Source of the DNA: Amoebophrya sp. AT5.2
Lineage: Eukaryota > Sar > Dinophyceae > Syndiniales > Amoebophryaceae
Assembly: GCA_005223375.1 (NCBI GenBank)
Contig: RXOD01004716.1
Location: 1 to 18,909 of the forward strand
DNA: 18,909 nt
Direction: 5' to 3'
Part shown: one piece after another, positions 1 through 18,909 of the stretch
Layout of the letters: each line of letters starts with the position of its first letter
Position numbering within the stretch: position 1 is the first letter of the stretch
Translations under genes and position numbers: made by a program
The notes under the pieces: model-generated
Seen by the model: only the letters and a program-made list of their open reading frames with translations
What the model was told of the DNA's origin: nothing
Databases searched by the model: none

Positions 1-1790
1 GTGGCCGCAGCCGCGTCGGCAGCTTTGTCTTCCTCCCCATCGTCGCCGCAATAGGCCTCCGAGGATGCCTCAATATCTTCTCCCGCCGCTATCGCAGCCT
101 GTCTCGCCTTCTCCTTTTCCATGTCGAGTCTTATCAGCTCCTTCGCCTCCACACTCGCCGGGCCCTCCGTAAGGCTTTCGAGCGAGAGCGCCTCTTTCCG
201 CCCACGCCTCGTCTGCACCGGCAGGTCCAGTTTTGCGGCGACAACAACCTTGTCATCTGGGTCAAGGGAGCTTCGCAGCCCCTGCTTCGTGTGGTGGCAA
301 AACACGCCGGCCTCTACCGCCTCAAGCCCGCCTTTGGACGAGAGCGGCACCTTCGCAGCACCCGCAGCCGGCTCGGATGATCCGGCACCCGCGCCTCGCC
401 CTACTTTCCCTTTCGGGCTGCTGCTCCCGGTTCCGCCTTTCGCCCCCGACATCCTCGGTGGCGACGCCCCGCTTTTCCCGAAACCCGGCGGCAGCCGCAC
501 ATCCCCCAGGACCGATGTCGGATCCCCGTGCGGGTACGGCTTAAAGCCCGGCCCGGATTTTTTCCGTACTGCTTGCTTGCACTGTAGCACCAGATCCATC
601 CGCGTCGCGCGCGGGTCCGTGAACGCGAATTGCGAGCCCTGTGCGTGTAGGAAGTCCTCCTTCAGCCGGGACGCCTCCGAGAACGCCGCCGGCGTGGCCG
701 CCCGGACCTGCTCCTTCGTGCGCCAGTCGGCCTCGCAGTTCGGCACCCGGTAGCTGGCCCAGAAACTGCTTCGGATCGGATGCGTCACGAACTCGTCGCA
801 CGGGTTGTCCGACCGCGGGCTAGCCACACGCCACGACCGCCCCTGGTCCGCCACTTCCACTGCAAGCAGGCGCTTCGCCTGCCGCTCCACCTGGTCTACA
901 AAATCCGCGGATTGTCGCGCCATCTGCATCAGGTACTCCGGCTTCTTGGAAGCCGTCCACAGGCCCTTGAGCGACTTCTTGGGCGCGCCGGACTTGCCGG
1001 TTGTGAGAAATGGGGAGGGCTTCTGCTTATCTTTGCTTGGGTCCCCGGCGTCCCAGATATTTTCGGTCAAAGGCCGGTCCGCGCCGTCCGCCCCCTCCGG
1101 CTTCTGCCACTTCCGCGTTTCGTCCAGCACCAGTTTGCTCTTGCCGACCAGACTCGACGTCGACTGGGCCTTGGCGCGCTGGTCTTTCGGCAGCGCTTTC
1201 TTCTTTTTCTTGTCGCCGCCGGCCGCGGCAAAGGAGGGCTTTGCTGGTGCCGCTGCTCCTGCACCACCAGGTGGTGACGCCCCACTGGCCCCCCGCGCCA
1301 GTTTGCCGGCAACGCCCGCCGCGCCAACTTTCTGTGAAACTGCTGCAGATGGGGCGCCAAAGAAGCCGGACGCGGATCCGACGTTCGACAAAGTCCCCAG
1401 CCGCGACAATGCCTTTATCTTCATCTGTGCTCGCCGCATCATCCCCCGCTTAACGAGCTTATTCCTGCCGTTCTTGTCCTTCGTTTCGGGGTGCAGAATT
1501 TTCTCGAGCGTGACCAGGAGCTCATCTCTGCATCTTAGCTTCAGAGAGACGTCAAAAGCTGCATCCCGGAAGCTCGTTAGCCCCGGAATACCAGCGACGA
1601 AATCGGACTCAACAGCACCAGTGAGAGCGGTGACCGCCTCCGCCCAATTGTTGAGCTCGATATCGTCGGCCGGGAGGTTGAGCGATTTCGGCAGTGCGTT
1701 CATCAGTGACTTTTTCCGCAGCGAGTTCGCGTGCGCATTTGAGCTCGACGAGCTACTGCTCAGCGCGGTTGTGGGACGCGACATCGACAT
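1..1790 (-). CDS. Hypothetical basic, low-complexity protein (3' end outside window)
   Basis: An open frame runs from an ATG at 1790 leftwards off the window edge, giving at least 596 codons. The start is the first ATG after an in-frame TAG about 40 bases upstream; the protein opens MSMSRPTTALSSSSSSS. Residues about 40-135 look folded, with mixed hydrophobic and charged helices containing NNWAEAVTALTGAV and RDELLVTLEKIL. A Gly/Ala linker and a lysine run (KKKKK) follow near residues 185-205. A second folded-looking stretch at about 280-430 has several Trp and Cys (SFWASYRVPNCEADWRTKEQ). Another Gly/Ser/Lys linker then leads to a charged helical segment (EAKELIRLDMEKEKARQAA) at the left edge. 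I recognise no family. High third-position GC and continuous openness over 1.8 kb argue that it is real. Plus-strand ORFs over the same bases are shadows. Confidence 0.75.
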   Translation of the reverse strand, partial: MSMSRPTTALSSSSSSSNAHANSLRKKSLMNALPKSLNLPADDIELNNWAEAVTALTGAVESDFVAGIPGLTSFRDAAFDVSLKLRCRDELLVTLEKILHPETKDKNGRNKLVKRGMMRRAQMKIKALSRLGTLSNVGSASGFFGAPSAAVSQKVGAAGVAGKLARGASGASPPGGAGAAAPAKPSFAAAGGDKKKKKALPKDQRAKAQSTSSLVGKSKLVLDETRKWQKPEGADGADRPLTENIWDAGDPSKDKQKPSPFLTTGKSGAPKKSLKGLWTASKKPEYLMQMARQSADFVDQVERQAKRLLAVEVADQGRSWRVASPRSDNPCDEFVTHPIRSSFWASYRVPNCEADWRTKEQVRAATPAAFSEASRLKEDFLHAQGSQFAFTDPRATRMDLVLQCKQAVRKKSGPGFKPYPHGDPTSVLGDVRLPPGFGKSGASPPRMSGAKGGTGSSSPKGKVGRGAGAGSSEPAAGAAKVPLSSKGGLEAVEAGVFCHHTKQGLRSSLDPDDKVVVAAKLDLPVQTRRGRKEALSLESLTEGPASVEAKELIRLDMEKEKARQAAIAAGEDIEASSEAYCGDDGEEDKAADAAAA

Positions 1791-1883
1791 CGTGTAGGTG
1801 TAGGTGAAGGTGTACGCGTTCGTGTGGCCCTAGGAGTAGGAGTCTTGTTTTCGTTGTTAGGAGCAGCGAGTAGGCGTGTTGTT
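1791..1883. other. Upstream region of the left-edge gene with GTGTAG-type short repeat
   Basis: The bases just upstream of the start codon at 1790 carry a short tandem motif, gtgtaggtgtaggtg on the plus strand (about 1793-1807). On the coding strand this reads as ACC-TAC repeats in the presumed 5' leader. The in-frame TAG that supports the chosen start lies at about 1829-1831. I see no TATA box or other promoter motif that I could defend. Confidence 0.4.
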
Positions 1884-2540
1884 TTAGTCTTTGTTACATT
1901 TCCTTGCAGCTGTAATCAAATTATCCACGACTAAGCCTCCCTTGCCCTCCAAGCTCCTCGCAATCTCCAGCAGTATTCCTACTCCTTGATGCTGGTATAG
2001 CCACCAGTGGCGCTTCAGCTTCTTCAGTTTCACTTTCAGAGGATCGTCATTCATACAACCATGCTTTGGTTTCGCATTGCGCGCCACAACAAAAATGTTG
2101 ATGGAGACGGTTGTCACGAGTATCACGAAGATCGAAGTTCGATTTGTACCGCGTAGCTCCCTACAGCGTCTCTTTCTAAATCTCCATCGATCATCTCTCT
2201 CTCTTACACCACGATCGAGAAGAACAAGAAGATAGATTGGCACGACTTCTACACGAGAAAACAAATTACGAGCACCAGCACGATGATCCAAATCCACGAT
2301 AGAAACCTTATCAACTACGGCATCAAGTCCATGATCATGGAGCTTGGCATTCAAACAAGCGATACCAATGCACGCACAGACAACAACAGCGACTGTTGAA
2401 GATGAACAGTCAAGACTTATAATGATAGATGATGTGACGTTCAGCACGACGCGTCGAGCGCAAAAACCAAGGACGACAAGGAGAAAAAGTCCACTGCTCT
2501 GCTGCCCAGCATGACTTTGACTAGATTTTAGATAGCTCTA
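1884..2540 (-). other. Open frame without a 5' ATG; possible exon of an unrecognised small membrane protein
   Basis: The frame is open from an in-frame TAG near 2540 to a TAA at 1884, about 218 codons, but its only ATG is late and starts MNDDPLKVKLKKLKRHWW. If translated, it would have a hydrophobic segment near its start (GLFLLVVLGF and the following SSIIISLDC/STVAVVVCACIGIA stretch), a second one (TSIFVILVTTVSINIFVVA), and a basic C-terminal helix region ending KGGLVVDNLITAARKCNKD. The composition is less GC-rich than the neighbouring genes. A CTTTCTTAG sequence just upstream could be a splice acceptor, which would make this an internal or terminal exon. It could equally be chance openness in intergenic DNA. 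I recognise no family. Confidence 0.25.
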
Positions 2541-2545
2541 TCTAA
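2528..2545. repeat. Small inverted repeat (8-bp arms, 2-nt loop)
   Basis: The arms ttagatag and ctatctaa are separated by ct. It lies in the gene-free stretch downstream of the RING gene. It is too short to mean much alone, and the rest of 2541-2656 shows nothing else I can identify. Confidence 0.4.
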
Positions 2546-2656
2546 GAAAGGTGAACGTGAAAGTCATCCTCGTCGTGCACCCCTGCGTCATGATCACGGC
2601 ACCGCGACAAGGAGATTGATGCTCGGAACTCGAACTCCAACTTGTGGTCGGTGTCT

Positions 2657-4056
2657 TCACGAGCTTGGGCGCCGACCTGCTAGAGTATAGGGGCACAAGC
2701 ACTCATGATTCCTTGTAAGTGCTAGTAGTGGCCCCGTACCCCGTATGCTGGGTATGATCTTTAAGAAATACATCAATTGGTGCTGCTGCAGGTGGCCGCT
2801 CTTGAGAAGCGTGGCAAAATCTATCAAATAACAAGACCCGTCCTTCTTGGTGCATGAGCTTTGCTCTGTTTGAGAGTTGGTGGAGTTGTGAATGTGATGC
2901 AGATCGGTTCTTGGAACTCGTCGACGGTAAGTCTTTAGTAGTCTACGCAAAAGGAAAAGACAACAGATTGATTACGCACCAGAGCAGCACCACCAAGTAA
3001 ATTCGGCGAGGAAGATGCACAATGGACTACAGCGGCCTCGTCCCTCACGCAACCCACTTACACTGAGGTTGAGCTGCTCCCGCCAGCGGCCGCGGCCGGT
3101 AGTGCGACGGGCGTCGCGAGTTCAGGTGGTCGTCCGAACACAGCCAACACTTGTCCACCAGCATACCCTTCTCTTGCTCCTGCATCTCCATCTCCTGGAG
3201 TACTAGAAGCGGTGGTCCCTCCGCCTCCCTCGCCGTTCTCTTGGTCTGTTGTGGTTCCTCCATCCTGTGTTGAGGCAGCTGCACCGACAGCCTCTGCCTC
3301 GATACTTGCGACCGCAGCTGCGACCTCGATCGTGGCTGCACTCGCGATCCCGTCGCCAAGATCGATGTCTATCGGTTCCCGACACAGCGGGCAGGTGTTA
3401 TTCCCGGTAGCCGCCCACTCAGCGAGGCAGTCGTAGTGGAACAGGTGCCCACACTGCGTCCTCGCCACTTTGACTCCCACTTCGAAATCGCAGCAGCAGA
3501 TGGCGCACTCCGACCGCTTTTTGTCCAGCCGGCGTAGTCGCTCGATGATTTTCACGCGACCGATCTTCTTCTGGACGCCGTCGACGCCCCCGCACCAGTA
3601 AATGCCGCACACGCCCAGGAGAAACATCCCACCGAGTAATGCGATCTCGGCCCACTCGCCGCCGATGGCGCGCTCGAGGTAGTCCAAACCGTCCTCGGAT
3701 CGCGCGAGGTGTGGCAAGTTCGTGATATTGACATGTGGAAGCGGGGGTGTCGTAGATGTAGAAGAATCCGTAGTACTTGGAGGAACGATTGTAGAGGTTT
3801 GCGCTGCAGATGCCGAAGCGCGTCGACGCGTTGTTGCCGAAGGGCGGCGTGGCTCTGCGTATGAAAGGGCGGCTCGGTTTGCGTCATGGAGCTCTTCAGC
3901 TGGGATAACACCCGAAACAGATTGCTCTTTTAAAGAGCTTTCATCTGCTGGTGCTGCACAAACGACGCCGCCCCCGCCGAGAAGTCGACTAGAAAAGACG
4001 ATGAACGCCGACGTTAGGCCCGACCATCTCCAAATGAAGAAATTGCCCGCCTTCAT
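2657..4056 (-). CDS. Single-pass membrane RING-H2 protein, probable E3 ubiquitin ligase
   Basis: Exon 1 (4056-3062) starts at the first ATG after an in-frame TAG. Residues 1-34 look like a signal peptide. A transmembrane segment lies at about 136-156 (IALLGGMFLLGVCGIYWCGG). A basic stretch leads into a complete RING-H2 finger with C184, C187, C202, H204, H207, C210, C222 and C225, plus the usual Trp at 214. RING-H2 fingers recruit ubiquitin-charged E2 enzymes, so this is probably a membrane E3 ligase with its RING on the cytosolic side. An Ala/Gly/Thr-rich tail follows. Without splicing the frame stops at 3058. A GTAAGT donor at 3061 and a pyrimidine-rich TAG acceptor at 2943 would remove 119 nt and add 94 residues (exon 2, 2942-2657) in frame, total about 426 aa. 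The RING call is firm; exon 2 is likely but unproven. The substrate is unknown. Confidence 0.85.
2943..3061 (-). other. Candidate intron in the RING-H2 gene (119 nt)
   Basis: On the coding strand the donor reads CAGT|GTAAGT and the acceptor is a strong pyrimidine run ending GCGTAG|AC. The donor is phase 2, and the next exon continues open for 94 codons to a TGA at 2657. The unspliced alternative ends three bases after the donor G, at TAA 3058-3060, so the donor itself contains the stop codon. Confidence 0.55.
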
Positions 4057-4897
4057 CCTTGGTTTGCGATTGGTCCTCGCGCACTAAGTCTATTTTTCGT
4101 CGAAATAAAACTCAATAAATACTTATACCCGTTGGAAAGTACGCGCGTATGGTTGTGTTTGATTATGGTCGTTTCAATCATGATGTGAATCCTAATCGAT
4201 GCTCTCCTCGTGGTCAAGTCACAGTCACTCGCCCTCCGACATATTAAGCGAAAAGAAAAATAATGTATGATGATCCACCTTAGGGCGGCTACGGTTCGGT
4301 TTAGAGTACTTAAAAATTAGATGCAAATACGCGGTTTGTGTATGGCGTCCTACCTCCGTAGCTACTTTTTTCCTCTTTGTGTAGTTTGTGTACACCTGAA
4401 CTATTCCGCTCCTTCACCGACGTAGGGCGTGATGCAGGCCAACATATGGCGGCAAGACTGCAAAACGAGGTACTTGTGGTTCGACGTTTCTCGATTTTTT
4501 ATATGAAACGCAAACGCCGAAGAAAATAAAGTCATGACTCATGCGATTGCCGCGAGAAGCAGAAGTGGAGCGACAACTATTCTTTCATGCGTCAATCGAA
4601 GTGGCGAGCGCTCGCCACTTCTGGGTCTGCTTCATCAGGTCATCACACAGTTCTTGCGCCAGCGCCGGTCGTCCTGGACATGCTTCTTTTTAGAGACTCA
4701 TTGCTGGAAGTGGAGGTGGAAGGTAAAGGGACTGACCTACTTCATTCATACATCAAAGCAATTCCACTGACTTCTACGCCTGACTGTGGCTGTGCCCCTG
4801 CTCTCATCTGATGAAGTGTTTGAACGGATTTGCGCCGGTCGTTGACGATGTAGGATTAGCACTGGAGTTCTTTTTTGCGTCGTCCTATAATTCCCCT
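4057..4897. other. Intergenic region between the topoisomerase-like gene and the RING gene
   Basis: This 0.84 kb stretch lies 3' of the large topoisomerase-like gene and 5' of the RING gene. It is AT-richer than the coding DNA around it. Short plus-strand ORFs (78 aa at 4534-4770 and 74 aa at 4587-4811) have no recognisable content and sit over the palindrome at 4598-4621. I see no tRNA, no snRNA and no defensible promoter motif. Confidence 0.5.
4598..4621. repeat. Perfect 24-nt palindrome
   Basis: gaagtggcgagc is followed immediately by its exact reverse complement gctcgccacttc, with no spacer. It lies about 280 bases beyond the stop codon of the topoisomerase-like gene and about 540 bases upstream of the RING start. 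It could form a hairpin in RNA from either strand or a dyad binding site in DNA. Confidence 0.9.
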
Positions 4898-7800
4898 TTA
4901 GTCTTTATCATCCGCTTCGACAACCACGTCAGCATCCGGACCATGAATCGCAACCTTATCGGCGTCCTGCTGCTCCGGCTGCATCTCCTCCTTCGAGTAA
5001 TATCGTCCTCCCGGAACGGGAGCCGCTGTTCCCATCTGAGACGGATCGAAGTTGTCAAACGAGTTTCCGTACATCATCATCTGTTGCTGTGCGGCTGCTT
5101 GCTGCTGGTACATTAGAATTTGCTGTTGTCCCGCCTGAAAGGCCAACTGCATTTCATAGTTGTAGTTGTACGCCGCAACTGAATCCTCGTAGCTGTTGTA
5201 TCCGCTTTGGTGGTGGTGCTGGTGGTGCTGGAGCGACGCGGTTGGGGTACGTTCCTTCGAGTTGTGAACGACAGCCGCGAAGGTGGGCGGCGGCGGGGGA
5301 GGTCCTAATTTTATCTGGCCCTTCTGCAGGAGAAGCTTTCCGAGCGGAGCGTCCTCGGCATTATCGCTCTTTTTCGTCGGAGCTTCCACGGCGCGTCCGG
5401 CAGCTTTCGACTCGTTCAATGAACGGGTATTAAGCGAGGACTTGACGGCGGGCGGGTTGCTGAGGTGATTCGCTGACAGCGGCGGCTTAGACTTGGATAC
5501 GCTATTGGGCAGAATCTCCCCTGGCGGCGGAGGCGGAGCAGCCGCGGGACTGGGCGCTTTGCTACCAGTGCTCCGCTGCAGATCCAGATGCGCGAGCACG
5601 CTCGAGGATTTTGGAGGAATGAGCTGCGTCGAGGCTGCTTTTGCTTTCGACGACGCATGCGATTGCGCAGCCTGGAGCTCACTTCCTTTTGGTTGCGCTG
5701 AAGCGGTCGCCGATGATGCAGATGAAGGCACGATGGTCACCTTTTTGCCGAAGGCAAAACCCGAATTCTTCACTATGGCAGCGGCTTGTTCTTGTTGTTC
5801 TTGCTGCTTCTTTATCTTTTGCTCCTGCAATTGATGAAGAACTTTCTTCACGTCGACGACAGCAGATCCACCAGGGGGGCGCATAGAAGTGGAGGCCTTG
5901 CTTTTCTCTTTTTCATCCTCGACCCTCGTTGGACGGTTTCGCTGTTCCTCCTTGTCGAACCCAGTCTCTCGCGTCCGCCGCGGGGGTGTCGGCGGGTCCC
6001 TGCGGGGCTTCTCCCGCTCCTTCTCCTTCTCTCGGCCGGCACTCTGCCGATCTTTCCTTTCCCTCGCGACGCTTGTACCCCGCCCACCTCTGGCCACACT
6101 GCGTCCGCGGCTCCTGCCTACGCTCTTTCCCCGCTGTTCCTTATCTTTTTGCGGTTCATCAGTAGAGTCTTTGTCTTTCTTTTCTTTGTTCTTGGTCCTG
6201 GACCGGCTTCTGCTGCGGCTCGACTTCTGTTGTTGTCGGCGCGCTCGACTCGCCCGGCGCGGGCTTTTGTCCCTTGAAGACGACCTCCACGAACGCAGCT
6301 TCTTTCGACTTTTTGCTCCTCCGGAGCGGGAACGCGACCGGGAGTCACCGCGGCCCTTTTTCTTCTTGCTCTTCACGCCCGTGTCCCCCTGTTCTTCTTC
6401 TTTACGCCCTCGACGAGCTCGCTGCCTGCTGCTGCTGGCGCTTCGACTTCGGCTCCGCCGACTTCCTTTCTTCTTCTTCTTATCCTGCCCATCCCTGGAT
6501 TCTTCGCGCGCTTTTTTCCGCGGTGGTCCCTCTGATTCGTCGCGTTTTTTATCTTTTCCTGCAGCGGGACGAGCAGCTTCCTCGCTCTTTCTCGCCCTCA
6601 CAGTTTTCGCCTTCGGAAGCGCACTCGCATCCGGCAGCTCGTCAGGCTTTTTTTCGTCACGTCCTCGCCCTACACTCCGTCCGCGTCCGACGCTCCGTCC
6701 CCGCTTGTGTGAGGGAAGCCCGTGTGAGGAGGTCGTGTTCGCAGAGCCGCCAGCTGAGGCAGCGGGAGCTCCAGCTCCACCGCTAGAAGCAGCAGGAGCG
6801 TTTCTTGCAGCAGTAGATGCGCTACTGCTAGCGCCAGCAGCAGTGGGTAGCTTCTTGGCTTTATGTTTATCGCCCTCTTCCTTCCGCTTTTGGATGGCTT
6901 TGCTCATAGCGTCCATCCACATCCGCAGGTTCCCGAGAACATTGTGCTCGCTCGCACGGTCCGCGTCGGAGAGACCGACGACGGCTTGCTTCGTCACGCC
7001 GGGTTCGCGCGCGATGAGCTCCTGGATTTTCTGCTCCATGAAGCCCTGGTGGTTTCTACCGAGGAAGGATACAGACCTGTTCACGTGCTTGCCGTCCTGC
7101 ATCTCCTCCAAAAAAGCGCACAGCCGCTCGCCAGCCGGGGTCACGCTTAGGTGGCGGAAGGACTGCGTGGCCGTCGCTGACGGGTCGATGCCTGGCGGTG
7201 ATGATCGACGGTGTTAGTTACTGACGCGCAAGTACGTACAAAGCCGGTTGAAGTGAATGCTGCTTGGAGCTAATTTTAATTTTATTCGTGGTGAGAGAGG
7301 CAGGGGTCTCAATCTCGCTTCTACGCTTTGTATTTGTTAAGGAATGGATATGGATCGATAGTCGTGGAACAATTAGCCCACCAGGGGGCTGACTGTGACT
7401 CTTGTATTTACTGTACGTTGTTGTAGTAGCGCAGGCTCACGAAACCTCCTGCGCACCCCGAGAAAGTCCTCGTATGTTCGCGTAAATATCGCACAACCGC
7501 ACAATTGCAGGAGCGGTCGGAAAAGGTGTAGGTGATATTTACATCGATTTCTTCCAAATTTCTGAAGCTCCCGCAAGTACGACGAGTAGCTCGACTACAC
7601 GCCCACGGTGACTGACGATTCACGATCGCAAAGAACATGCGTAAAGCAAGTAGTATACCTGCTTCCCGTGCCTCTTTTCCTTTAGGTGGCATCTGTGGAT
7701 TCGAGTGCAGCAGGTTGGCTTGCAGGAGGAATGATACAGCTCGCGCGGCGTCGAAATAAACATCGTCCGTCCCCACGCCCCCGTCGCCGCCAAAATGCAG

Positions 7801-10800
7801 CCAGTGCAACAGCTCTGCATCCGTTGGCGGGTGCATTTGCGGTTGAAACAGCTCCACCTTCTGAACCTTTGCGCCGTGAAGCTTCGCTATGGTCGCACTT
7901 CCCGAAATCTGCCCCTTCCGTAGCCCCAGCAGGTTTCTCGCGACGAATCCGGGAAGCAGGTCGCGCAATCGTCCGTCATCTCTGCGCACCTCGTGCTTCA
8001 CTCCATGCCACGTCGGTTTTTTCTCGCCGCTCAACTTGCACAGAACACCTTCGCGGTGCCCCGCCTCGCCTAGCTTCGCCTCAAAAATCCACTCCGTGTA
8101 GTGTAGTTCCGGGGAGAGCGACGCCAAGAAGTGACGTGCAATCAGGCTGTAGACCCGCGCGTCTGCCTCGGCGTTATTCAGCGGCTTTGCCCCTCGGGAT
8201 ACTTCCGAGGCAGTTCCTGCTGTTGTGGATGCGTGGCCCTCCATCGAGGGCAGCAGTCGGAGAGGCATGATGGCGTGCGTGTCCGCGTAGGAAGCGTGAG
8301 CGTTTGGAGCTCCTTCCTGAAGCAGTGACGAAACCCGTCTCGTGTTTTTCACTGTCGGAATTTTCAGGTGGGCGAATGCCTTGCAGTCGCAGAGCTCGTA
8401 GTGCACCCGTTCGACCACGGGCAGTCGCGGGTAGCTTCTCGATTTCGTGAGCGGGAAGGAGATCAGGCCCTGGTGGTAGAGTCGCAGCGCGGTCTCGAGC
8501 ACCTGCTCGGGAAGCAGGCCCTCGCCTGCCGCCGACCGCAACAGTTCCGCGGTGCAGAGAGGCGCGGGTGGTGCGAGGACGCGGATTCCCTCGCCAGGTA
8601 GAGCAGTAGCTGCATCTCGATCTGCCTTGTCGTTTTCACAGGTGGCTCGTGATTTGATGGAGAGCGTTGCAGTAATCTCCTTCGATGGATTGTTGGCGTA
8701 CAGTAGGTCGTAGGACTCGTTCGTCGTGAGGCCCATTTCGACGATAGTGAGAGAGGCCACGAACTCAATTCCAAAGGTCTCGAACGCAAGACACGGCTTC
8801 TTGCCGACCTTGCGCTTCCGGTCCATGCAAAAATGCAGAGCGGCAAGCTCGCATAAAGCGCCTGAACATATTTGCGCAGTTTGTAGGTCGTCGTCTATCT
8901 TGACGGTGTTTCTGAATGTTTGCGCGTACTAATAGCATCTCAGATTTTTTCGCAGGAGGTGAAGGAAGGAGAGACTGAATGAGTTGTAAAACAAGTACCC
9001 ACGAAAGGAAGTCGTCTTGACGCTAAACTGGGCACTTGTTTCATATGCTGCGCAGTGAGAACGTTTCCTTCTTCCCCCAGCACTTGCGAAAGGCCTGCTG
9101 CAAATTTGCACACCACCTCCTCGTGTACCAACGACGCGGTCGTCAGCGCGCTACTGTCCTCGCACGTCGTGCCGCATGCTTGTTTTGGCGCTAGTTTCAC
9201 CAACTTGCCGAGGCTCGTGTAGGTTCTCGTCCCGGACCAACATCGAATTGTTTTGAACAGCTCCTGCACGTCATCGCGTGTGAAGCGTGCGCACCGCATG
9301 CGGAACACGCGCTCCTCTTCTTCGAGGTAACTGTACGCCAACTTCTCTTTCAGGATTGCGGCCCAGCGCTCGCCGCTGGGGTCCAGATCAGTGCACAGCA
9401 CCAGGTAGTGACATTGCTGCGCCACTTCCGCAATCGTGATGTCGTTCTGGCTGTCGTTCTTACCTTTCGCGGTACTGCTCGCGGACGAGGGGGCTCCGGT
9501 GGGTTTTGCAGTTGAAGACGTACGGGCGACGAATAACTGCTTCAATTCCGCCTGCGAAGCAACTTTAAACTCCGCACCGAGCTGCTCGACGGAAGACTCA
9601 AAGATTTTGTTCCGCAAATTGGAAGGCGCCGGGAAAGGAATCGAAGCGACTAGCTCGCGGGCGGCCTCCGCAGGCGCCCCGCGGAGGCTCTTGGGCCGTT
9701 CGCAGTAGGTCACGCGGATCGCGCAGTTTTTGTGCTGGGCTGCGGCCGGCGGAAACGGCCACACGCAGTCAAACACGCGTTTCCCGGGGGGCGGTTTCCA
9801 CGCCTGGTTCGTCCGTGCCTGGACTTTCAGCGCGCCGGCCACGGAGGCAGCAGCTTCAAAAGACTCACACACCACCAAAACGTGCGGCGCGAGCGGATCC
9901 AGACCGGGAATTTGGTCGCGCGACTGCAGCTCCTGCCTATCTGACGTCGGGGGCGAGGCGATTGAAGCGGCCGCGCCACATTTTCCCTTCATGCCGCTGG
10001 CGACATTTTTATGCTGCTCGTCCTTAATCGCTGCGCCCTTCTTCACGTCTGCATCGGTAGCGGTGCCCGGTGTCGAATTGCGTACTTTTCCAACCAAAAT
10101 GCCGCCGGTGTCTCTCTCCTGAACAGTTGCGCCCGGCCTGTACGCGTCCTTCTGCGCGCTCGGCCCCGCCGCGCCCAGGCCCCCCGCCGTGCTCTTGCTA
10201 GCATTGAAGACGGACAGGGCTCGTTCAGGGTCTGGTTTTCCGCGCTTCCAATTTTGCTCCGCCTCGCGAAAGCGGTCCGTCTGGCAGTATTCCGTTGCCC
10301 AGCGGGAGAGGTAGTAGCAATGCGCCAACCGACCGCCCACTTTTTCGCGCAAAATTCTTTCCGTATCGGTCGAGAACACAGACGCTCCCGCCCGAGCCGC
10401 ATTCAAAACGTCCTGCTCGTGCGTGAGGTAGCTCGTCGCCACCCGCTTCCTCGGGTCCCTATGCTGCACTTCACTGCGCAGGTCGTTCAGAAGCGTCCAC
10501 CCCTCGTAGATGCGCGGCAATGCCGCGGACAGCTTATTTCTGTTTCTCGACGGCGGTACGCTAACGGCGAGCAGGCTGCCGCCTGCCGCGGGAGCTGGCG
10601 GCGCTCCCGTGTGCGCCTCGATCGCCGCGTTTAGAGTCCCCAGCCCGCTCTGCATGACGTGCTCCATGAAAGCACCGATCGTGTGATCCTCAACCGTGAC
10701 GTGGGGCTTCCTATGCTGCGGCAGAAAAGCGTCCTTTTGTTCATGATCGGCGAGCGTCACACTGTGCGGGTGCTTGTCGAGGAGGACCACGAGGTCCTCC

Positions 10801-13541
10801 AGTTTCTCGAGTTTCGCGTTTGCGTCGAATCTGTGGTCGCTCTTGTGCACGCCGGCGCCAGCCGGATGGAAGTTCGGCTTAACGCGAATACCGTTACGAG
10901 CTGTGCTGTCCGCTGTTCCAGCTGCTGGAGCGCTGTGAAGATGGGTGCTTCCGTCCTTTTCAATTGTGCGCGACACGCCGGCTGCTGTTGACGTTGTTTC
11001 GCGAGTCGAGAACGTCGAAGAGGATGTTGCGGCTTTGTGCTCCTCTCCTGGCCGCGCCCGCGCAACGCTCCGGCCCCGTTCGCTTCGGGTTGTAATCGTG
11101 ATTTCCCGAGCGCGAGCGGTGCTTGAAGCACGGCCTCTTCCGACACTCTTGTTTCTTGCTGCTGCTCCTGTTGAGGAGCTGATCCACTCCCCCGATTCCT
11201 TCCGCGAATGGGCCGTGGAGGCATCAGCCTTGGAAACATCCTCCCTCGCGGCTCTGCCGGCATTAGTCGTCGCAACCTGTTGCGCTGAACCGCTCCAGCA
11301 GAAAGTCGCAGCGGGAATCGATGTTGACGTCGATCGTGCTAAGCTCCCCACTCCGACGGCCGCTGATGTTGTTGCGGAGCCTGACGGTGGAACCGGAAGA
11401 GCTCCGCCTCGCGCTACAACTGCTCCTGCAGTAGCAGAGGCGCCGCCCACTGCAGCTGTAGATCTTGTATTTGTAGCTATCGGTGGTCCTCGTGCGGGAC
11501 CCGAAACCGCCGCAGTTGAAGTTGTTCCGGCGGACGGCTGGGCCCATCTCCTGTCGACTCCTGCTCCTGTCGACGGAGGAGCTGCACCCCCACCTTCTCC
11601 GATCGCTGCCGCGGCAGGCCCGGCTCTGTTTTTTCCCTCGAGTTGCCGTCGCAGTTCCTCTAATTTCTCTTTCGTCTTTCGGTTCTCCTCTTCGGCGAGC
11701 TCTCGCTTTTTGCGTTCCTCCTCTCGCTTTTTGCGTTCCTCGTCTAAACGCTTTTGTTGCGCTTCTCGCATATCCTGCGACCGCTTCCACAGCTCTGCCG
11801 CGTCCCTTTCTCGCTTCGCCTTCTCTTCTCGCCTCTCCTCCTCGAGCCTCTTAATTTGTTGCTCTTTCACTCTCAGCTCCGCTCTGGCACGTTCGTCGCC
11901 GGACATTTGCTGCCATTCTTTTGGCGTGAAAGTCTGTTCCACCGTAGCAGTCGCAGCGAAAGATACTTCGCCCCCCTTTTTGCCCTGATGAGTGCCCAGT
12001 CCCTTCGCAGTTCCTTTCCCAGCGCTGTGTTTTGACTGCTGATGCGACCACGTGGCTTGGTGCTGACCCGCGGTGGTCGCAGAGGAAGAGGTTGCGATTA
12101 CCTGGCCTGCCGGCGCTTGAGCTCCGCGAGAGCCCTGCTGATCGGTGCTAGCAGATGCAGTGGAGGCTGGGAAGGCTTTCATCTTCTCGTGCTGCGTTGC
12201 ATTGTTTAGCGAGCCGCTTCCTCCTGTGGCGCTAGCCGCGCCTACCGTTCCAATTCCTGTAGTCGACGCGGAGGCTGCAGAGGGTTTTTTTGGTTTGGAC
12301 ACCATTAACGATATCTTGCCGTTGGGTCCACGCGCGATCATCGTCGCGCTGGCCGCCGTAACACCTCCTCCGCCTGTCGTGACGGCGGCAGGATCGGCAT
12401 TCGCACCACCCCTCACCATTCCAGCATCGGCTGCGCCCGTCACGGCACTGCTTCTACTTTCTGATTTCAATTGGCTTGCCGCAGCAGCACCCGCAGCCTC
12501 CATCTCCTTCTTGCGCCGCTCGCGGTTTTCGCGCTCGGCCTCCTCGTCGGCCTGCTGCTTTGCCTTCGCAGCTGCTTCCCTCTCCGCCTGCCGCTTGCCC
12601 GCCTCGTCCGCCAGCCGCTTAGAAGCGCAAGCGGCTTCCAGCTTCTGCCGCCGCTCCTGATCGCGCGTCTCCTTTTCTTGTTCCTTCGCCTCCTTTTCCG
12701 TCTGCTGCTCCTGTTGCGCGAGCGCGACCTTTTTCCGCTCTTCCTCTTCCTCGCGTTCCTTCGCCGCTTTCGCCTCGAGTTGCGCCAACAGCTCGGCCTC
12801 CGACTTGGGCTTTTGGTTCGGGTTTTTCTTCTTCGTGCTTGCGGCCTTCGGCCTCGCGTTGCCCCCTCCAAGAACATTCATCTCGTCCACACCTCCGTCG
12901 ACCACGTGCGCCCAGACCCGTAGCGAGCCGTCCGTCGGAGGTGGTGGCTCTGGGTCGACGAGTGGCAGCAACTTCACCGGCTCGTCGTCTACAACAATCG
13001 GAACTGCGTCCTTCTTGTAAATCTCCTGGTAGAAGGCATCCGACTGATCCAGTCCGAACGGATTGTAGTCGTCCGTGGCGTCCACATCTTCTGAAGAACA
13101 GAGGTCGTGGTCGGCGACATCATCTGTAGCAGGCGGGGGCGCGTCGATAGCAGGTGCACGTGGAACAGGGAGCGGCGAACGCTGCTGTAGTTGTAGCAGG
13201 TGTGCTCCAGTCCCAGTCGTGCTCTTGGAGGTCACACCAGTTAGATTCACACGACCAGCATGATCCCCCAGACCCGACGCTGGCGGAGACACAGTGGAAA
13301 CTGCAGGAGGCCCTGTCCAGATGAAGCAGCTTGATCTCTTTTCTTTAGTCGTGGCATTTCTTGCGTGAATAGTAGTACGCGAGTCAAAAATTGTGCACGT
13401 AGCAAAAACAAAAAAATGTTTCTTTGTACCACCGCGGCTCTTCGGAAGGGGCGCTGGCATTTTCGACGACGGAGCCCCAGCAGCAGGAGCGCCTGAAGCA
13501 GGCATCCGTGCTTTTGATGTTGCCCCGCTGTTGTGCATCAT
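4898..13541 (-). CDS. TOP3-like: Giant topoisomerase III-like (type IA) protein with coiled-coil N-terminus and RS/Gln-rich C-terminus
   Basis: Three ORFs join through two GT-AG introns: exon 1 13541-8999, exon 2 8861-7659, exon 3 7191-4898, about 2679 aa. The start is the first ATG after an in-frame TGA. Residues 1-1200 are low complexity with coiled coils at about 248-360 and 540-640. A TOPRIM domain follows with E1226 and D1385-L-D1387. Exon 2 carries the toroid core: LYHQGLISFPLTKSRSYP aligns with the TOP3 active-site motif, DTHAIMP with DxAHPPIHP, ARHFLA with VRHFLA, and GVGTDD with GIGTDA. Exon 3 opens with the FLPTELG-like SVTPAGERL and the end of the core, then an RS domain and a Gln/Tyr/Met-rich tail. 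The catalytic Tyr is Phe (F1650), its partner Arg is Leu (L1652), and the third TOPRIM acid is Ser. I see no C-terminal zinc ribbons. Family membership is firm; inactivity and an RNA role are inference. Confidence 0.8.
7192..7658 (-). other. Intron 2 of the topoisomerase III-like gene (467 nt)
   Basis: The donor is GCAG|GTATAC and the acceptor ATCACCGCCAG|GCATCG, with a branch-site-like TAACTAAC at 7213-7220 on the opposite strand, about 20 nt before the acceptor. It is phase 1 and restores the frame exactly. It contains no coding-strand ATG usable as a start for the following exon. It bridges the core between the GVGTDD motif and the SVTPAGERL motif, which lie close together in known TOP3 proteins. 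Reading through gives a non-conserved tail ending at 7408, which I treat as intronic. Confidence 0.7.
8862..8998 (-). other. Intron 1 of the topoisomerase III-like gene (137 nt)
   Basis: The coding-strand donor is GTGG|GTACTT and the acceptor ATATGTTCAG|GCGCTT. It is phase 1, and removal joins exon 1 to exon 2 in frame with no stop. Without splicing the frame ends at 8940. A pyrimidine-rich block follows the donor. The joined protein keeps TOP3 order: the end of the TOPRIM region (LVHEEVVCKFAAGL, like the RQELDLRIGAAF segment), then PCLAFETFGIEFV, like the GPCQFPTLGFVVER segment. Confidence 0.75.
11700..11741. repeat. Two tandem 21-nt repeats in coiled-coil coding sequence
   Basis: ctctcgctttttgcgttcctc occurs twice back to back. 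On the coding strand each unit encodes one heptad (EERKKRE-type), so this is a one-heptad duplication within the second coiled coil of the topoisomerase III-like protein. Confidence 0.85.
13313..13429 (-). other. Possible in-frame intron near the N-terminus of the topoisomerase III-like gene (117 nt)
   Basis: On the coding strand CGGTG|GTACAAAG could be a donor and CTGGACAG|GGCC an acceptor. The enclosed 117 nt are a multiple of three and AT-richer than the flanks, and they encode an atypical Phe/Cys/Lys-rich peptide (KKHFFVFATCTIFDS) inside an Ala/Pro/Gly-rich region. Removal would shorten the protein by 39 residues without changing frame. Sequence alone cannot decide this. Confidence 0.35.
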
Positions 13542-14498
13542 GGTCCTCGCGCCGCTGTTCCCAAGAACAGCTCAGCAGACTCGAAGCCCTCCTCCGTGTG
13601 TGCTTGCGTTGACGGTCCGATGTTCCACTGACTCTCACGAAGCAAATGAGTGCGAGCGGAAACTACGTACGCGACAAACACATGCTTCGTAGCATAAACA
13701 AGCAGAAACTGCTTCTCCTGCTTCGACAGCAGCGGGCAGCTTCGCCTCTCGTCGGAGTGGGATTATCCGAATGCGAATGCGATCGTAGATGCGTTTCGAA
13801 TGCCGTGTGTGTCTATACAAATGAATCAAACATCAATGAATACGCGTAAGTATGCCCATGGCAGGGCTGTGTAATCAAACGACCACACGCAAATGTGATG
13901 AAGAACTGTACGCCTGTTTACAAACCTAAAACCAGATGTCATGTAGATGAATGAGGGCGGTATGAGTACCAACGAAATCCGTAATCAGCACGACCATCGG
14001 TCGCTGCAGCTGAGGAACCACGCACATTCACATAAGTAGCTTCACGACCCACGTCGAAGTAGCTGCAGGCACCACTGAGGTCGTTAAGCAGATGTTGAAA
14101 AGGCAAGAACAATTGAAAAGATGCGATGATGAAGAACTGTTGCCCTTTTTGGTCGGGCAAGCAGGACCTTGTGTGTAAATTGGACTTGAGCTTGACCGTC
14201 GTTTTCTATTTCTGTTTTTTGATTTTGACGAGGAACGTTTTGGAGCTGGAACCGAATCATGAAGTGGGAGTAGCCAAAAACGAATCTAGAGTATGCTTTC
14301 GATCTATCATCTTTGTCCGGTTGGGAACAGTCGAATCATCTTCCATGATGACATATTCGATTGATTCTTTTTCTTTCATGTTCATCACGAAGAGTGCCGT
14401 CAGGAGACCACGACTCGACACCAGCACAATTTTGTGCTGATCGTGACCCGAGTCTGGCGCTGGCGGTGAGCAGCACCTGAGGTCGGAACTGAGTGTGC
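13542..14498. other. Gene-poor region upstream of the topoisomerase III-like gene
   Basis: The first roughly 30 bases are the presumed leader of the minus-strand gene, with an in-frame TGA at about 13568-13570 (coding strand). The remainder is AT-richer and has only short ORFs. The longest with a true ATG is a 104-codon plus-strand ORF at 14126-14440 with one hydrophobic stretch (LTVVFYFCFLILT) and no recognised family. I see no RNA gene or promoter I can support. Confidence 0.4.
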
Positions 14499-14670
14499 AT
14501 GTCTGTGAGTCAGTCGCCGTAAGTATCGCGAGGCTCCAACAACCCAACCTGTGTTTGCATGCTGACAGCATCAGTTTCAGGAGCAATTCTCTGGCAGCTG
14601 CGGTGCGGGCAGGCATCCGAGAAAGGGACATGACAGGGCGGGTCGAAATCGAAAACACGTTGTACACCAT
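14257..14670 (-). other. Uncertain 137-codon ORF, overlaps the plus-strand candidate gene
   Basis: From an ATG at 14670 the frame stays open to a TGA at 14257. The protein begins with a basic, Ser/Arg-rich, weakly amphipathic stretch (MVYNVFSISTRPVMSLSR) and ends with a charged segment (MNMKEKESIEYVIMEDDS). It matches the direction of the other genes here, but it overlaps the plus-strand two-exon candidate at 14499-14770, and codon use alone does not say which is real. No family is recognised. Confidence 0.25.
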
Positions 14671-14770
14671 CTCCGTTGGTTGCGACAGCACGCTGTTCCG
14701 AATCAGGTTTGTCCCAGATTCTCTGGCGGAATCTGCCGTCTCGGCTCCTTGTTCGTATCCGTCAGAATAA
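14499..14770 (+). CDS. Candidate two-exon mini-gene, about 69 aa, unknown function
   Basis: Exon 1 is 14499-14518, starting at an ATG. An intron of 62 nt (14519-14580) has a consensus donor GTAAGT, a CTGAC branch-like site and a TTTCAG acceptor. Exon 2 is 14581-14770, ending in TAA. The phase-2 junction gives one open frame of 69 aa beginning MSVSQSPSNSLAAAVRAG and containing GRVEIENTLYTISVGCDS, whose composition resembles a real folded protein. It would be the only plus-strand gene in the window. The 20-nt first coding exon is short, so the true start could be further upstream. I recognise no family. A minus-strand ORF overlaps it. Confidence 0.35.
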
Positions 14771-15315
14771 ATTTTCCACGTGTCGTACTAGTTCACAACA
14801 TAGGATTGGCATACTCATACTCTCGGCACAAAAAGCATCAACTTACTTCTTGTTTCGCCCGTCATCTCAAAACAACAGATTTTTTGCTAGTGCGATTCAA
14901 TGTTTCAAAAATTTCAACAGACTATACGAACTGGTTCATTCAAAGGGACGCTGCTGCCAGCACTGCAGAGCGTCAGAGTAGTACCCAAAAATAGAAACGG
15001 AACGGACCCCATTCCGCGAATACGACGTCACAAGGTCCGCATAAGTAGTACGTTATGGCCAGCATCTTACTCGTCCCTAAGAAGGTGACAGTCAGGTGCA
15101 ATTCGCCTTGTAGTTGTACGTGGTAAATTGGTAAAAAGTTCAAAATTAAAATTCGATGGCTTGAAGATGTTCTGCTTCTGCTTCCACCCCACCGGTCCGA
15201 GAAATAGCCTTCGCGACCACGCCATCAACCTCAAGCTTAACAAACTACAACACTCCCTCCACTACATTCTTTCAATTATTGCAATTTGCACGTCGATGAA
15301 GACCATACACTTGCG
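14771..15315. other. Intergenic region downstream of the right-hand gene
   Basis: AT-richer DNA 3' of the gene ending at 15316, with several A/T runs around 15125-15160. Only very short ORFs are present on either strand. I find no RNA gene, terminator-like hairpin or repeat here. Confidence 0.4.
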
Positions 15316-18300
15316 TTACAACAAGAGTGGCTGACGTGCGAGCCAAAAACCGTGGTTGTCGTTGTGGAGAAGGACGCGGCAGAGTTTCCGCCAGTAGTCT
15401 TCGAAGCGGAAGCCCGTGTTCTGAGCCTGCAGCTCCAGCACTGAGGGCAGGACCACCAGCACTGTTTCGCAGATGTGATACTCGCGTCGGCCCAGACGCG
15501 GCAACAGCTTCGTCGGCCCTTCGACGTCGTCATACTCATATCGCTGTCTCGTCGACCACGACGAAGTACTAGCACTCGCACTAGCACTAGATACCTCTGC
15601 GTTCGCCCCACCTCTTCCGGTCGGGAGATCAGCAGCAGCAGCCTCCCCGCCGTATAGCGCTGCCGGGTACCTGAGCGGATCCACCAATTCCTTGGGAACC
15701 AGGAAGCACAGCAGCCGCTGGTACCCGAGGCACTTGCAGCTTGCAAAGTGCGCCAGGCTCACGAGGTACGGCGCGTGGCGATCGTCCAGAAGCACTAGCT
15801 CAGCGGGATCCGTTATCGCCCGCTCGAGCCGAACGCGGAACCTCACCTCCGGAAGACTGGCCGACAGCGCTACGTCCCGGAACTCAGCCTCGCGCGACTC
15901 CCGCACGGTCTCGAAGTCGGTCCTCGGGACGAAATCCGTACCCGTACCACCCGTTTTACGCGGCTCGTCCTCCTCCTCGTGACGGAGCTCCAGAACGTAG
16001 TTTCCAGCGGGGCACTGAACACGCTCGAGAAGCAGTTCGTAGTCGGTCTTGAAGCGGTCCGCTTCGGCAACCTCGGACGCGGCGGACGGGCCGGCGGCGT
16101 CGACAGGGAGCCGGCGAACCCCTGTCTGCTTTCTCATCGCGTTCAGAAGAACACGACCGAGCCCGCTGCCCTCGGTGCCGTCTCGGGCAGTGGAAGATGA
16201 TGCAGAAGAACAAGATGCTGCTGATCCCACTGGCGGCGTGGAAAATGCACCAGATCCCAGTGGCGGCGGCGCGATGGACGGTGTAGAAGATGCTGATCCC
16301 ACTGGCGGCATGGAAGACGCAGAAGATCCACCGCCCACATTCGGGCTTTTCTTGTTGCTTGTGGTTCCAGCGCAAGCGCTGGGGCTGGGCTGCAGCCCGC
16401 TGCGCGGCGGCGGACTCGACGTCGAAAGAACTTTATCGATGGCTCGCGGCACGCTCGCGAACAGGGATGCGAATGCGCCGCTCGCCGGAGGCGTCTTGCT
16501 TATCCCCTGTTTTGCCTGAGAGGACGGTGGCTCAACTAGAGAAGGCTCATTTTTGCGCAGCAGCGAATACATCGGCAGACCTGCCTCAGCCATTTTTGCT
16601 TGTTGTGCTCGGTTCCCCCTGCCCTTCTCGAGCGAAACTGCGCCGCTCTGCTCGGATGTGACACCTTCAACTGCGGAGGCTGACGAACTCTCCTCATCTT
16701 CCTCCCCACTCTCCAATGCAGCTTCAAGAAGACGAGGACCAGCATCGTCCATGCAACGCATCTCAATTTCCACTTTCGAGGGCTCGCAACACATCTCAAT
16801 TTCGATTTTCGAGGGCTCGAAATTGCGCGCCAAATTGGCCAACATTCTTGCCGTCGCATGGGGTGACGTGCTGCAGGACTGTTCGGGCGAACAGGTGGGA
16901 GTGCACTGTGTGCTGGCGTCGCTCTCGGGGCAGGGTCCCTGCCCCGAGAGCGACGCCAGCCCCGAGAACGACTCCGGGGGCGACGCTGAGGCTGACGATC
17001 CGCGGGCGGAGGGGTCGTCTTGCTCCGGACTCTCGGGAGTGACGTCGGACGGTGAATCAACTTCAACGGGTGCTCTCGTCGAGAGCAGCGGAGTGACCGT
17101 CCCAGCACCTGCGGCTGCTGCGGATACGGCAGGCGAGGGCGCTGGTGCCAATGCGGATGATATTAGTAGTCCCGTTTGGACTTGGGGTTCTTGGACAGTT
17201 TTTGTGGTCGTTGACGAAGACGACGCACGACGAGGCGCCTCCAACTGGAGGTCCCGGAATTTCTGTGTCAAGTCTCCGACGGACGAAGCTGCATCAAATT
17301 TCGGATTTGGTGCTGCAGCACGGGAGGCTTCGGTCGTCTGTTGGGATTTCGCGACCCATGGTTCCGTCTCCGTGTCTGGGATAGTTGTTGTCGAGACTAC
17401 TGTCGGCGCAGGGGGGAGCGACACAGAAAACTTGGCTCCAGACTCATCTTCAAGATCATTTTGATTTTCCCCATCGGAGGAGTCCTCCAACCGAAGCTGC
17501 GCGATCTGGGGATGCAATTCCGGTCGTCGCATTTTCTCGCGGCTTGCTGGTGGCGTTCCCGTTGCTGGGGCTCCTCTTACCGTACGGCTTGGTCGGAGCA
17601 AAAACCGCGAACTCCGCTCCGCTTCTGTTTCATCCCCCTCGTCCGATGTTCGGTCCCGGTCCGGCGCGGCGCATTTTATCGACATCGGTGACCCACTCTC
17701 AACCTGCATCTCAAAGCGCACATCACTGGCGTCGGTCACAGTTGAAGGTGATCCTGTGCCGGGGGGACTGAAAGTGATCACGTCCTTCTTGTCGTTGCTA
17801 ATCGAAGCTTTCATCGCTGCTAACGCGGGAGGTGGCGGTGTAAGTATATCGAGGTCGACGGCACGCTGCAGTGGCGCTGCCGCTCTTGGGCTCGGAAAGA
17901 AGTTCCTAATCCTTTCCACCGAGGCCGAACTCACATCGACTTCAGCCCTATGTGACGGAAGGACGTTTGCCCCGATAGGTAGGAAATCCTCCACGTCGCC
18001 CTCTCGGTCAATCGACGCGCGCACGCGCACGAAGGTAGCGTCGGGGTCTAGGAACAAATGCGGGAGCGGTTGGCTGCGCGGCGCAGAAGTATCAGCGGCT
18101 TTGCCGCAGACAGGCGATGGTTGACGATTCCGGGCAAGACGAATACGCTCCTCCGGAACTTCGCTTCTGATCATCCCAGCCGCAAGCGTGGTCACCGGAT
18201 AAAGCACCTCGTGTGGTCGCGGTGCTATTTTGGTATTCGTTTTCGTTGCAGTTGATGCTGCGGGGCCAGCAGCAATCGTGGTTTTATTTGTTGCACCAGT

Positions 18301-18876
18301 TTTTGATGTTGTTCCGCATCCCACATTGTGGACGTTGTAGCTTCGAGCGCACCAATAGGAGCCGGCTTTCTCCCCGTGCAGCTGGTCGCACGCATGATGA
18401 TCTTTCTCCGAACAATCTGCGCGCGAGGACGGGTACCCAGGAGCTCTCATGGGAGGACCATAGTGTGCAATGACCTGTCTTGGCACGGGACGGAAGTGCC
18501 GCTGCCGCAACCGATTGCCAAGGAGCTTCTCGATCACCGGAAACGAGGACTCGTGGTCTGCGCCAGCTCCTGTGCAGCTGCCATCTTCTTCAGGGTCCTT
18601 AACGAGACGAGCCGCAAAGGGCAGTGCACTGACGCGCGTACTGCCCGTCTTGCCCCCACAACGGGGACAGAAGTGAGGAAGTCGGAGCCCCCTGCTCAAT
18701 GCTCTACTGCGACCTTTTTTCCTCCGCCGTCTTCGACGCTGCAAGTCTTGCGGGGCGTCTCTTTGGTTCCCACCACCCGGAGGCCTGGCAGCAGAGCCCC
18801 TAGGCGCTGCCAGGCCACCAGGTTGCGGTGGCACGGGTGTCCGCGGTTGCGCTGGCACGAGTGTCCCGCCCAACAT
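15316..18876 (-). CDS. Hypothetical large Ser/Pro/Ala-rich protein with a structured C-terminal domain
   Basis: A single open frame of 1186 codons runs from the first ATG in the window, at 18876, to TAA at 15316. The 11 codons upstream of that ATG are open to the window edge, so the true start may lie outside. Residues about 45-65 are strongly basic (a run of Arg/Lys, possible nuclear localisation) and are followed by a CPRCGG knuckle without an obvious second Cys pair. The middle, about 200-930, is low complexity with Ser, Thr, Pro and acidic stretches and two tandem repeats. Residues about 935-1186 look folded, with a varied composition (TDYELLLERVQCPAGNYVLEL, PYLVSLAHFASCKCLGYQRL, EDYWRKLCRVLL), broken by one Ala/Ser insert. 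I recognise no family; a regulatory or scaffold role would be a guess. Confidence 0.75.
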   Translation of the reverse strand: MLGGTLVPAQPRTPVPPQPGGLAAPRGSAARPPGGGNQRDAPQDLQRRRRRRKKGRSRALSRGLRLPHFCPRCGGKTGSTRVSALPFAARLVKDPEEDGSCTGAGADHESSFPVIEKLLGNRLRQRHFRPVPRQVIAHYGPPMRAPGYPSSRADCSEKDHHACDQLHGEKAGSYWCARSYNVHNVGCGTTSKTGATNKTTIAAGPAASTATKTNTKIAPRPHEVLYPVTTLAAGMIRSEVPEERIRLARNRQPSPVCGKAADTSAPRSQPLPHLFLDPDATFVRVRASIDREGDVEDFLPIGANVLPSHRAEVDVSSASVERIRNFFPSPRAAAPLQRAVDLDILTPPPPALAAMKASISNDKKDVITFSPPGTGSPSTVTDASDVRFEMQVESGSPMSIKCAAPDRDRTSDEGDETEAERSSRFLLRPSRTVRGAPATGTPPASREKMRRPELHPQIAQLRLEDSSDGENQNDLEDESGAKFSVSLPPAPTVVSTTTIPDTETEPWVAKSQQTTEASRAAAPNPKFDAASSVGDLTQKFRDLQLEAPRRASSSSTTTKTVQEPQVQTGLLISSALAPAPSPAVSAAAAGAGTVTPLLSTRAPVEVDSPSDVTPESPEQDDPSARGSSASASPPESFSGLASLSGQGPCPESDASTQCTPTCSPEQSCSTSPHATARMLANLARNFEPSKIEIEMCCEPSKVEIEMRCMDDAGPRLLEAALESGEEDEESSSASAVEGVTSEQSGAVSLEKGRGNRAQQAKMAEAGLPMYSLLRKNEPSLVEPPSSQAKQGISKTPPASGAFASLFASVPRAIDKVLSTSSPPPRSGLQPSPSACAGTTSNKKSPNVGGGSSASSMPPVGSASSTPSIAPPPLGSGAFSTPPVGSAASCSSASSSTARDGTEGSGLGRVLLNAMRKQTGVRRLPVDAAGPSAASEVAEADRFKTDYELLLERVQCPAGNYVLELRHEEEDEPRKTGGTGTDFVPRTDFETVRESREAEFRDVALSASLPEVRFRVRLERAITDPAELVLLDDRHAPYLVSLAHFASCKCLGYQRLLCFLVPKELVDPLRYPAALYGGEAAAADLPTGRGGANAEVSSASASASTSSWSTRQRYEYDDVEGPTKLLPRLGRREYHICETVLVVLPSVLELQAQNTGFRFEDYWRKLCRVLLHNDNHGFWLARQPLLL
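16205..16330. repeat. Degenerate in-frame minisatellite
   Basis: Units built on gatgctgatcccactggcggc recur three times (around 16214, 16250 and 16289) with variable spacers. On the coding strand they give repeated PPVGSAS / PPLGSGA motifs in the low-complexity middle of the large hypothetical protein. Confidence 0.75.
16759..16824. repeat. Two tandem 33-nt repeats (11-residue unit EPSKxEIEMxC)
   Basis: The 33-nt unit beginning catctcaattt and containing ttcgagggctcg is present twice in tandem with a few substitutions. On the coding strand it gives EPSKIEIEMCC followed by EPSKVEIEMRC. A recent in-frame duplication in the hypothetical protein is the simplest explanation. Confidence 0.85.
16912..16960. 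repeat. 49-nt perfect inverted repeat (24-bp arms, 1-nt centre) inside coding sequence
   Basis: Bases 16912-16935 (beginning gctggcgtcgctctcgggg) are the exact reverse complement of 16937-16960, with only a T between them. The arms are GC-rich and would form a very stable hairpin in DNA or RNA. The ORF reads straight through it as a Gly/Ser/Pro peptide (GLASLSGQGPCPESDAS). Confidence 0.95.
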
Positions 18877-18909
18877 CGACTGTCGTGGCTGCGGCGCCGG
18901 GGCCGGGGC

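Follow-up and report, generated by a model that had tools for sequence, protein, structure and literature searches.

In human TOP3B, Y336 attacks a scissile phosphate held in place by K10 and R338, and the parts of the published accounts cited here report that E9Q abolished cleavage and that Y336F served to show DNA binding (PMC9363430). The same Y336F protein bound mRNA without cleaving it, and a catalysis-independent mode of mRNA regulation is cited in the relevant section of that report (PMC12585913); for the fly, the cited sections describe a tyrosine-to-phenylalanine form unable to perform several TOP3B jobs (PMC12070812, PMC12140118). Here we describe a gene of Amoebophrya sp. AT5.2 in which this substitution occurs naturally. 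It lies on the minus strand of the window, by which we mean the whole stretch of 18,909 nucleotides analysed (contig RXOD01004716.1, positions 1 to 18,909), and, judged by its residues, the type IA topoisomerase core that it encodes has very probably lost strand cleavage. Because such a core is present but carries other residues in place of the nucleophile and its helpers, and because the genome has TOP3A- and TOP3B-like genes with active motifs elsewhere, we favor, with some reserve, a pseudoenzyme derived from TOP3B that would clamp RNA or single-stranded DNA without catalysis and act there as a scaffold.

The active-site motif reads SFPLT (TCC TTC CCG CTC ACG) where active TOP3s have SYPRT: the catalytic tyrosine is replaced by phenylalanine (TTC at 8457-8455) and the arginine two residues past it by leucine. 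In the alignment the region appears as lisFPLTksrsYP against yisYPRTetthYP in TOP3B, and one TOP3B entry of that alignment also has phenylalanine in place of the tyrosine. The TOPRIM domain keeps its first glutamate, with serine for the lysine that follows, and both aspartates of DxDxE, with serine for the final glutamate; the Gly-Glu after the motif is kept. Farther along, a conserved arginine (the R of FTR) has become glutamine, and a conserved histidine, doubtfully placed by the alignment, may be contained in THAIMPLRL. We rejected one isolated sequencing error as the cause of the altered active site because five conserved catalytic-site positions differ, the motif alone holding two changes. 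Given these losses and the reported behavior of tyrosine-to-phenylalanine TOP3B, the protein is predicted to grip nucleic acid without cutting it. The original prediction had suggested that the protein may be topoisomerase-derived but had missed the tyrosine change, which strengthens that claim.

The gene is assembled from three minus-strand open reading frames (ORFs; 13571-8940, 8928-7408 and 7213-4898) that join in frame via two GT-AG introns into 2679 codons without a stop. The join of exons 1 and 2 yields LPFVGALCELAALHF, which aligns with VLSYGPCQTPTLYF in the TOP3B of the same genome. The EukProt model for the locus, g3791.t1 (P0001), has identical junctions for both introns, is 1664 aa long, and differs in its start, with an alternative 5' exon near 14027. 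A reading as three separate genes was rejected, since the conserved core becomes continuous across the two junctions and the EukProt model uses them as well. The expectation that the three ORFs form one protein of about 2679 aa thus holds for the in-frame joins but is less secure for the full length, P0001 being shorter. The evidence for the gene model consists of the genome sequence and the EukProt model; exon-like periodicity was found in all four exon stretches tested. The features are as follows.

4898..13541, minus: whole gene, Met at 13541 and stop at 4898 (2679 aa read through, 1664 aa in P0001)
8999..13541, minus: exon 1, with N-terminal arms, pre-TOPRIM region, TOPRIM and core start; end junction common to P0001
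12483..12806, minus: first coiled-coil-like stretch, Glu/Lys/Arg/Ala-rich (residues 246-353), named from sequence with no coiled-coil program
10985..12364, minus: 1380-nt stretch open in frame, an intron in the EukProt model, holding the second coiled-coil-like stretch
11631..11897, minus: second coiled-coil-like stretch, Glu/Lys/Arg-rich (residues 549-637), likewise named from sequence
10185..10895, minus: pre-TOPRIM region with a suggestive resemblance to the same-place region in the genome's TOP3B
9297..9878, minus: TOPRIM match, with the kept and changed residues given above
8862..8998, minus: intron 1, GT-AG, 137 nt, GC 0.42, junction also in P0001
7659..8861, minus: exon 2, type IA core with the active-site region
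8446..8460, minus: active-site motif SFPLT
7795..8574, minus: Topoisom_bac match (2.6e-13; 2.4e-12)
7192..7658, minus: intron 2, GT-AG, 467 nt, GC 0.48, junction also in P0001
4898..7191, minus: exon 3, with core end, basic and arginine/serine (RS) region and Q/Y/M-rich tail
5521..6825, minus: 1305-nt stretch open in frame, an intron in the EukProt model, holding the RS region
6191..6463, minus: densest RS part (residues 2159-2249)
5030..5209, minus: Q/Y/N/M-rich tail, in both gene models

Membership in the type IA family is supported by profile and by fold. Topoisom_bac matches exon 2 at 50.2 bits (E 2.6e-13), above the curated Pfam cut-off of 35.1, a positive profile search that bears out the predicted type IA core; the predicted TOPRIM has a match in the right place and order in exon 1, with a score (18.5 bits, E 0.0023) under its cut-off of 23.1. 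A predicted model of the core aligns to TOP3 structures across core residues 3-802, and 31 of 65 conserved columns are kept, the TOPRIM acids among them. The general arrangement proposed earlier is likewise supported: a TOP3 core within a protein of great length that also has parts resembling coiled coils and parts rich in RS and in Q/Y/M. Pfam scans found no zinc ribbon in exon 3 or P0001, and no RRM.

A profile search of the 50.7-Mb assembly with Topoisom_bac found three places: the window gene, a TOP3A-like gene (C441; 4cgy, 1.2e-147) and a TOP3B-like gene (C819), the latter two with SYPRT. The window protein matches TOP3B at 2.4e-6 and TOP3A at 0.27 in sequence, and its fold match is tied between them. 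An origin from TOP3B seems likely because of the resemblance ahead of TOPRIM and the shared Q/Y/N/M-rich tails. The pre-TOPRIM region is 31% identical to that of C819 where aligned (LAHCYYLSR here, LAHYYYLSR there); its global score of 90 exceeds the maximum of 83.5 in 1000 shuffles, its local score was reached in 2 of 2000 shuffles, and among 411 segments from other ORFs of the genome two (global) and three (local) scored as high or higher. No such resemblance was found in the TOP3A N-terminus. Q, Y, N and M make up 52% of the tail here, 48% in TOP3B (its very end unread) and 35% in TOP3A. Besides the core, mostly simple-sequence matches emerged when the whole protein was compared locally with the two loci, and the portion of the genome's TOP3B that was read, its 3' end excepted, holds no zinc ribbon. 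A tree of 25 proteins, in which one end branch was 10 changes per column long, was uninformative and rejects neither TOP3A nor TOP3B; a fold of the pre-TOPRIM region predicted from two sequences was unusable (predicted local distance difference test, pLDDT, 38). As for the two paralogues themselves, in the TOP3A-like gene (L001) a long Gly/Pro-rich insert separates the core from a below-cut-off zinc-ribbon match (1.9e-6), and in the TOP3B-like gene (L013 4038-6308) TOPRIM is preceded by an N-terminal ORF that is 756 aa long and made up mostly of simple sequence.

The extensions were compared with a genome sample of 34 ORFs of at least 400 aa from twenty 10-kb stretches. The protein has 58 RS/SR dipeptides; set beside a threshold for SR proteins (more than 40% RS/SR across an RS region no shorter than 50 aa), its best windows hold 50% RS over 50 aa and 36% over 100 aa, figures that rest on the stretch being exon. 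None of the sampled ORFs reaches 30% RS in 50 aa, so the RS arm is unusual for the sample. The definition of SR proteins in the cited portion of a recent account includes at least one RRM (PMC12787238), and because none was found the protein falls outside the usual definition of an SR protein. The Gln/Tyr/Met-rich tail of the original prediction is confirmed by a Q/Y/N/M content of 52% over 60 aa, against a maximum of 30% in the sample. The predicted RS domain is there in composition but lies in a region that the EukProt model omits, the predicted coiled-coil parts are coiled-coil-like by sequence, and the long low-complexity extensions are present but not special to this gene. A GRSV(G/A)RGR motif occurs in looser form ahead of TOPRIM and again after the core.

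Several observations weaken the reading given to the extensions. P0001, the sole gene model found, omits the RS region (6825-5521) between GT..AG ends; low complexity exceeds 25% in 4 of the 34 sampled ORFs, compared with 33% in the window protein; in the genome's own TOP3B, too, the N-terminus is long and simple and the tail rich in Q and Y; the strict DNA pattern for GRSV(G/A)RGR has 13 matches in the genome (two in the gene) against 9 in a reversed control, and is not clearly enriched genome-wide; and for association with the spliceosome there is no evidence beyond composition. The first of these could mean that the gene is a dead TOP3B copy without an RS domain, 6825-5521 and 12364-10985 being introns or optional introns and the main protein being about 1664 aa, since P0001 splices across both at GT..AG sites. 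We regard this as unlikely, though not negligible, for both stretches have lengths divisible by three and no in-frame stop, and at about 59% GC they resemble the exon stretches tested (0.59 for the RS stretch, whereas the two accepted introns have 0.42 and 0.48). Dinucleotide shuffles of the RS stretch average 9.3 in-frame stops and none of 2000 was open; its period-3 signal of 35.4 exceeds the highest of 500 shuffles (22.9); and it has 32 RS/SR dipeptides, where no more than 27 occur in any of 1000 shuffles and the remaining five frames have 8-14, with serine drawn from both TCN and AGY codons and arginine from both CGN and AGR. For the stretch holding the second coiled-coil-like part, again 0 of 2000 shuffles were open, and period-3 is 78.8 against 19.0. 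By these statistics both stretches are probably coding. P0001 appears to remove stop-free, in-frame, exon-like stretches as introns, and other low-complexity genes of this proteome may have been shortened likewise in gene models.

The remaining observations bear on whether the extensions mean anything. Low-complexity drift could be so common here that the RS and Q/Y arms are no evidence of RNA function, a view compatible with the pseudoenzyme part of our proposal and favored by the 4 of 34 sampled ORFs, by the long simple stretches in the genome's TOP3B and TOP3A, and by a GRSV(G/A)RGR pattern barely above its control; that no sampled ORF reaches 30% RS in 50 aa or exceeds 30% Q/Y/N/M in 60 aa makes it, to our minds, a minority possibility. 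A duplicate decaying into a pseudogene, without selected function, would account for changes in about half of the otherwise conserved columns, and no orthologue turned up in searches that were all weak. Searches in 5.8 billion proteins each scored only the best 8000 (7999) word-sharing candidates; among these, exon 2 had no match at E 0.001 and residues 1050-1520 of exon 1 recovered no protein but the gene itself. A two-row profile also found only the gene, missing even ordinary TOP3s and this genome's TOP3B, and within the genome the pre-TOPRIM/TOPRIM stretch matched nothing but itself, in an insensitive search that missed the paralogous TOP3 genes; a prokaryote scan gave no match with a single TOP3A query and 38 loci with a two-row alignment. 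Because so few candidates were scored, the lack of detected orthologues is weak evidence against wider presence. Decay is improbable in the face of 2679 joined codons without a stop, the 31 conserved columns kept, TOPRIM acids included, and the periodicity of the four tested exon stretches. Least probable is that the protein is still a topoisomerase, either working together with a partner or using another nucleophile, such as the tyrosine that follows a few residues later. The kept first glutamate and DxD of TOPRIM would suit it, but TOP3B also has the later tyrosine near its real one, so that it is not a replacement, and the protein has also lost the lysine and arginine with which human TOP3B holds the scissile phosphate.

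We return to a TOP3B-derived extra type IA paralogue that has very probably lost cleavage and may now act as a nucleic-acid-binding scaffold. Its toroidal core would still hold single-stranded RNA or DNA without cutting, like tyrosine-to-phenylalanine TOP3B; the coiled-coil-like arms may multimerize the protein; and the basic RS/GRSV-rich arm and the Q/Y-rich tail could bind RNA and connect to nuclear messenger ribonucleoprotein (mRNP) or condensate partners. The protein might serve splicing, mRNP packaging or R-loops, or compete with TOP3B. That the RS arm makes it a scaffold of nuclear RNA processing, perhaps spliced-leader trans-splicing, with the core as an RNA clamp and cutting left to the active TOP3B, is a tentative suggestion that we would not lean on. 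The original idea of an RNA- or spliceosome-associated protein derived from a topoisomerase accordingly keeps its second half, the spliceosome link being one of composition.

Perkinsids have a spliced leader very similar to that of dinoflagellates (DinoSL). The 21-base DinoSL core (sequence from the cited part of PMC2606063) occurs in the assembly 18 times exactly and 15 times with a single mismatch, and in the reversed control not at all. Of 20 sampled 10-kb stretches, twelve contain at least two ORFs of 400 aa or longer (five hold one, three none), in all twelve on the same strand, and the longest ORFs of the window are all on the minus strand. These signs make a dinoflagellate, taken broadly, the very probable source. 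Among the neighbors, the minus-strand ORF 3058-4083 has a RING-H2 finger (Pfam zf-RING_2, 6e-13) and its product is probably an E3 ubiquitin ligase; the minus-strand ORFs 3-1829 (609 aa) and 15316-18909 (1197 aa), each open at a window edge, have no Pfam match up to E 1.

A full-text literature search, most subscription journals lying outside its scope, found no type IA topoisomerase pseudoenzyme and no dinoflagellate or RS-domain TOP3. The gene is a variant within a known family and has so far been seen in a single genome. With SR and SR-related proteins the window protein shares an RS-rich stretch, here of 50% RS over 50 aa and joined to a topoisomerase core with no RRM found. An RS-rich, disordered-looking ORF elsewhere in the genome (C1651, L085 4018-6099) has, as here, a charged coiled-coil-like stretch followed by tandem GRSVARGR repeats, a likeness of composition and repeats only, no topoisomerase part having been noticed in the stretch listed and no family search made on that ORF. 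TOP3B has the same order of TOPRIM then core and gives the best sequence match and a tied best fold match, and the genome's own TOP3B shares the simple Q/Y-rich tail and a similar pre-TOPRIM region. It differs in having SYPRT rather than SFPLT, in the TOPRIM lysine and one acid that are lost here, in lacking the RS-rich arm, and in its C-terminal zinc fingers, for which Pfam scans gave no zinc-ribbon match here. Engineered human Y336F and fly Y332F TOP3B have the same change and, in the cited sections, bind but do not cleave (PMC9363430, PMC12585913, PMC12070812). Catalysis-independent RNA binding by human TOP3B is reported from such an engineered mutant (in the cited part of PMC12585913); the window gene, unlike these, is natural and has further active-site losses, and an evolved tyrosine-to-phenylalanine change with loss of the phosphate holders would allow a test, set up by nature, of the uses of a topoisomerase core that does not cut.
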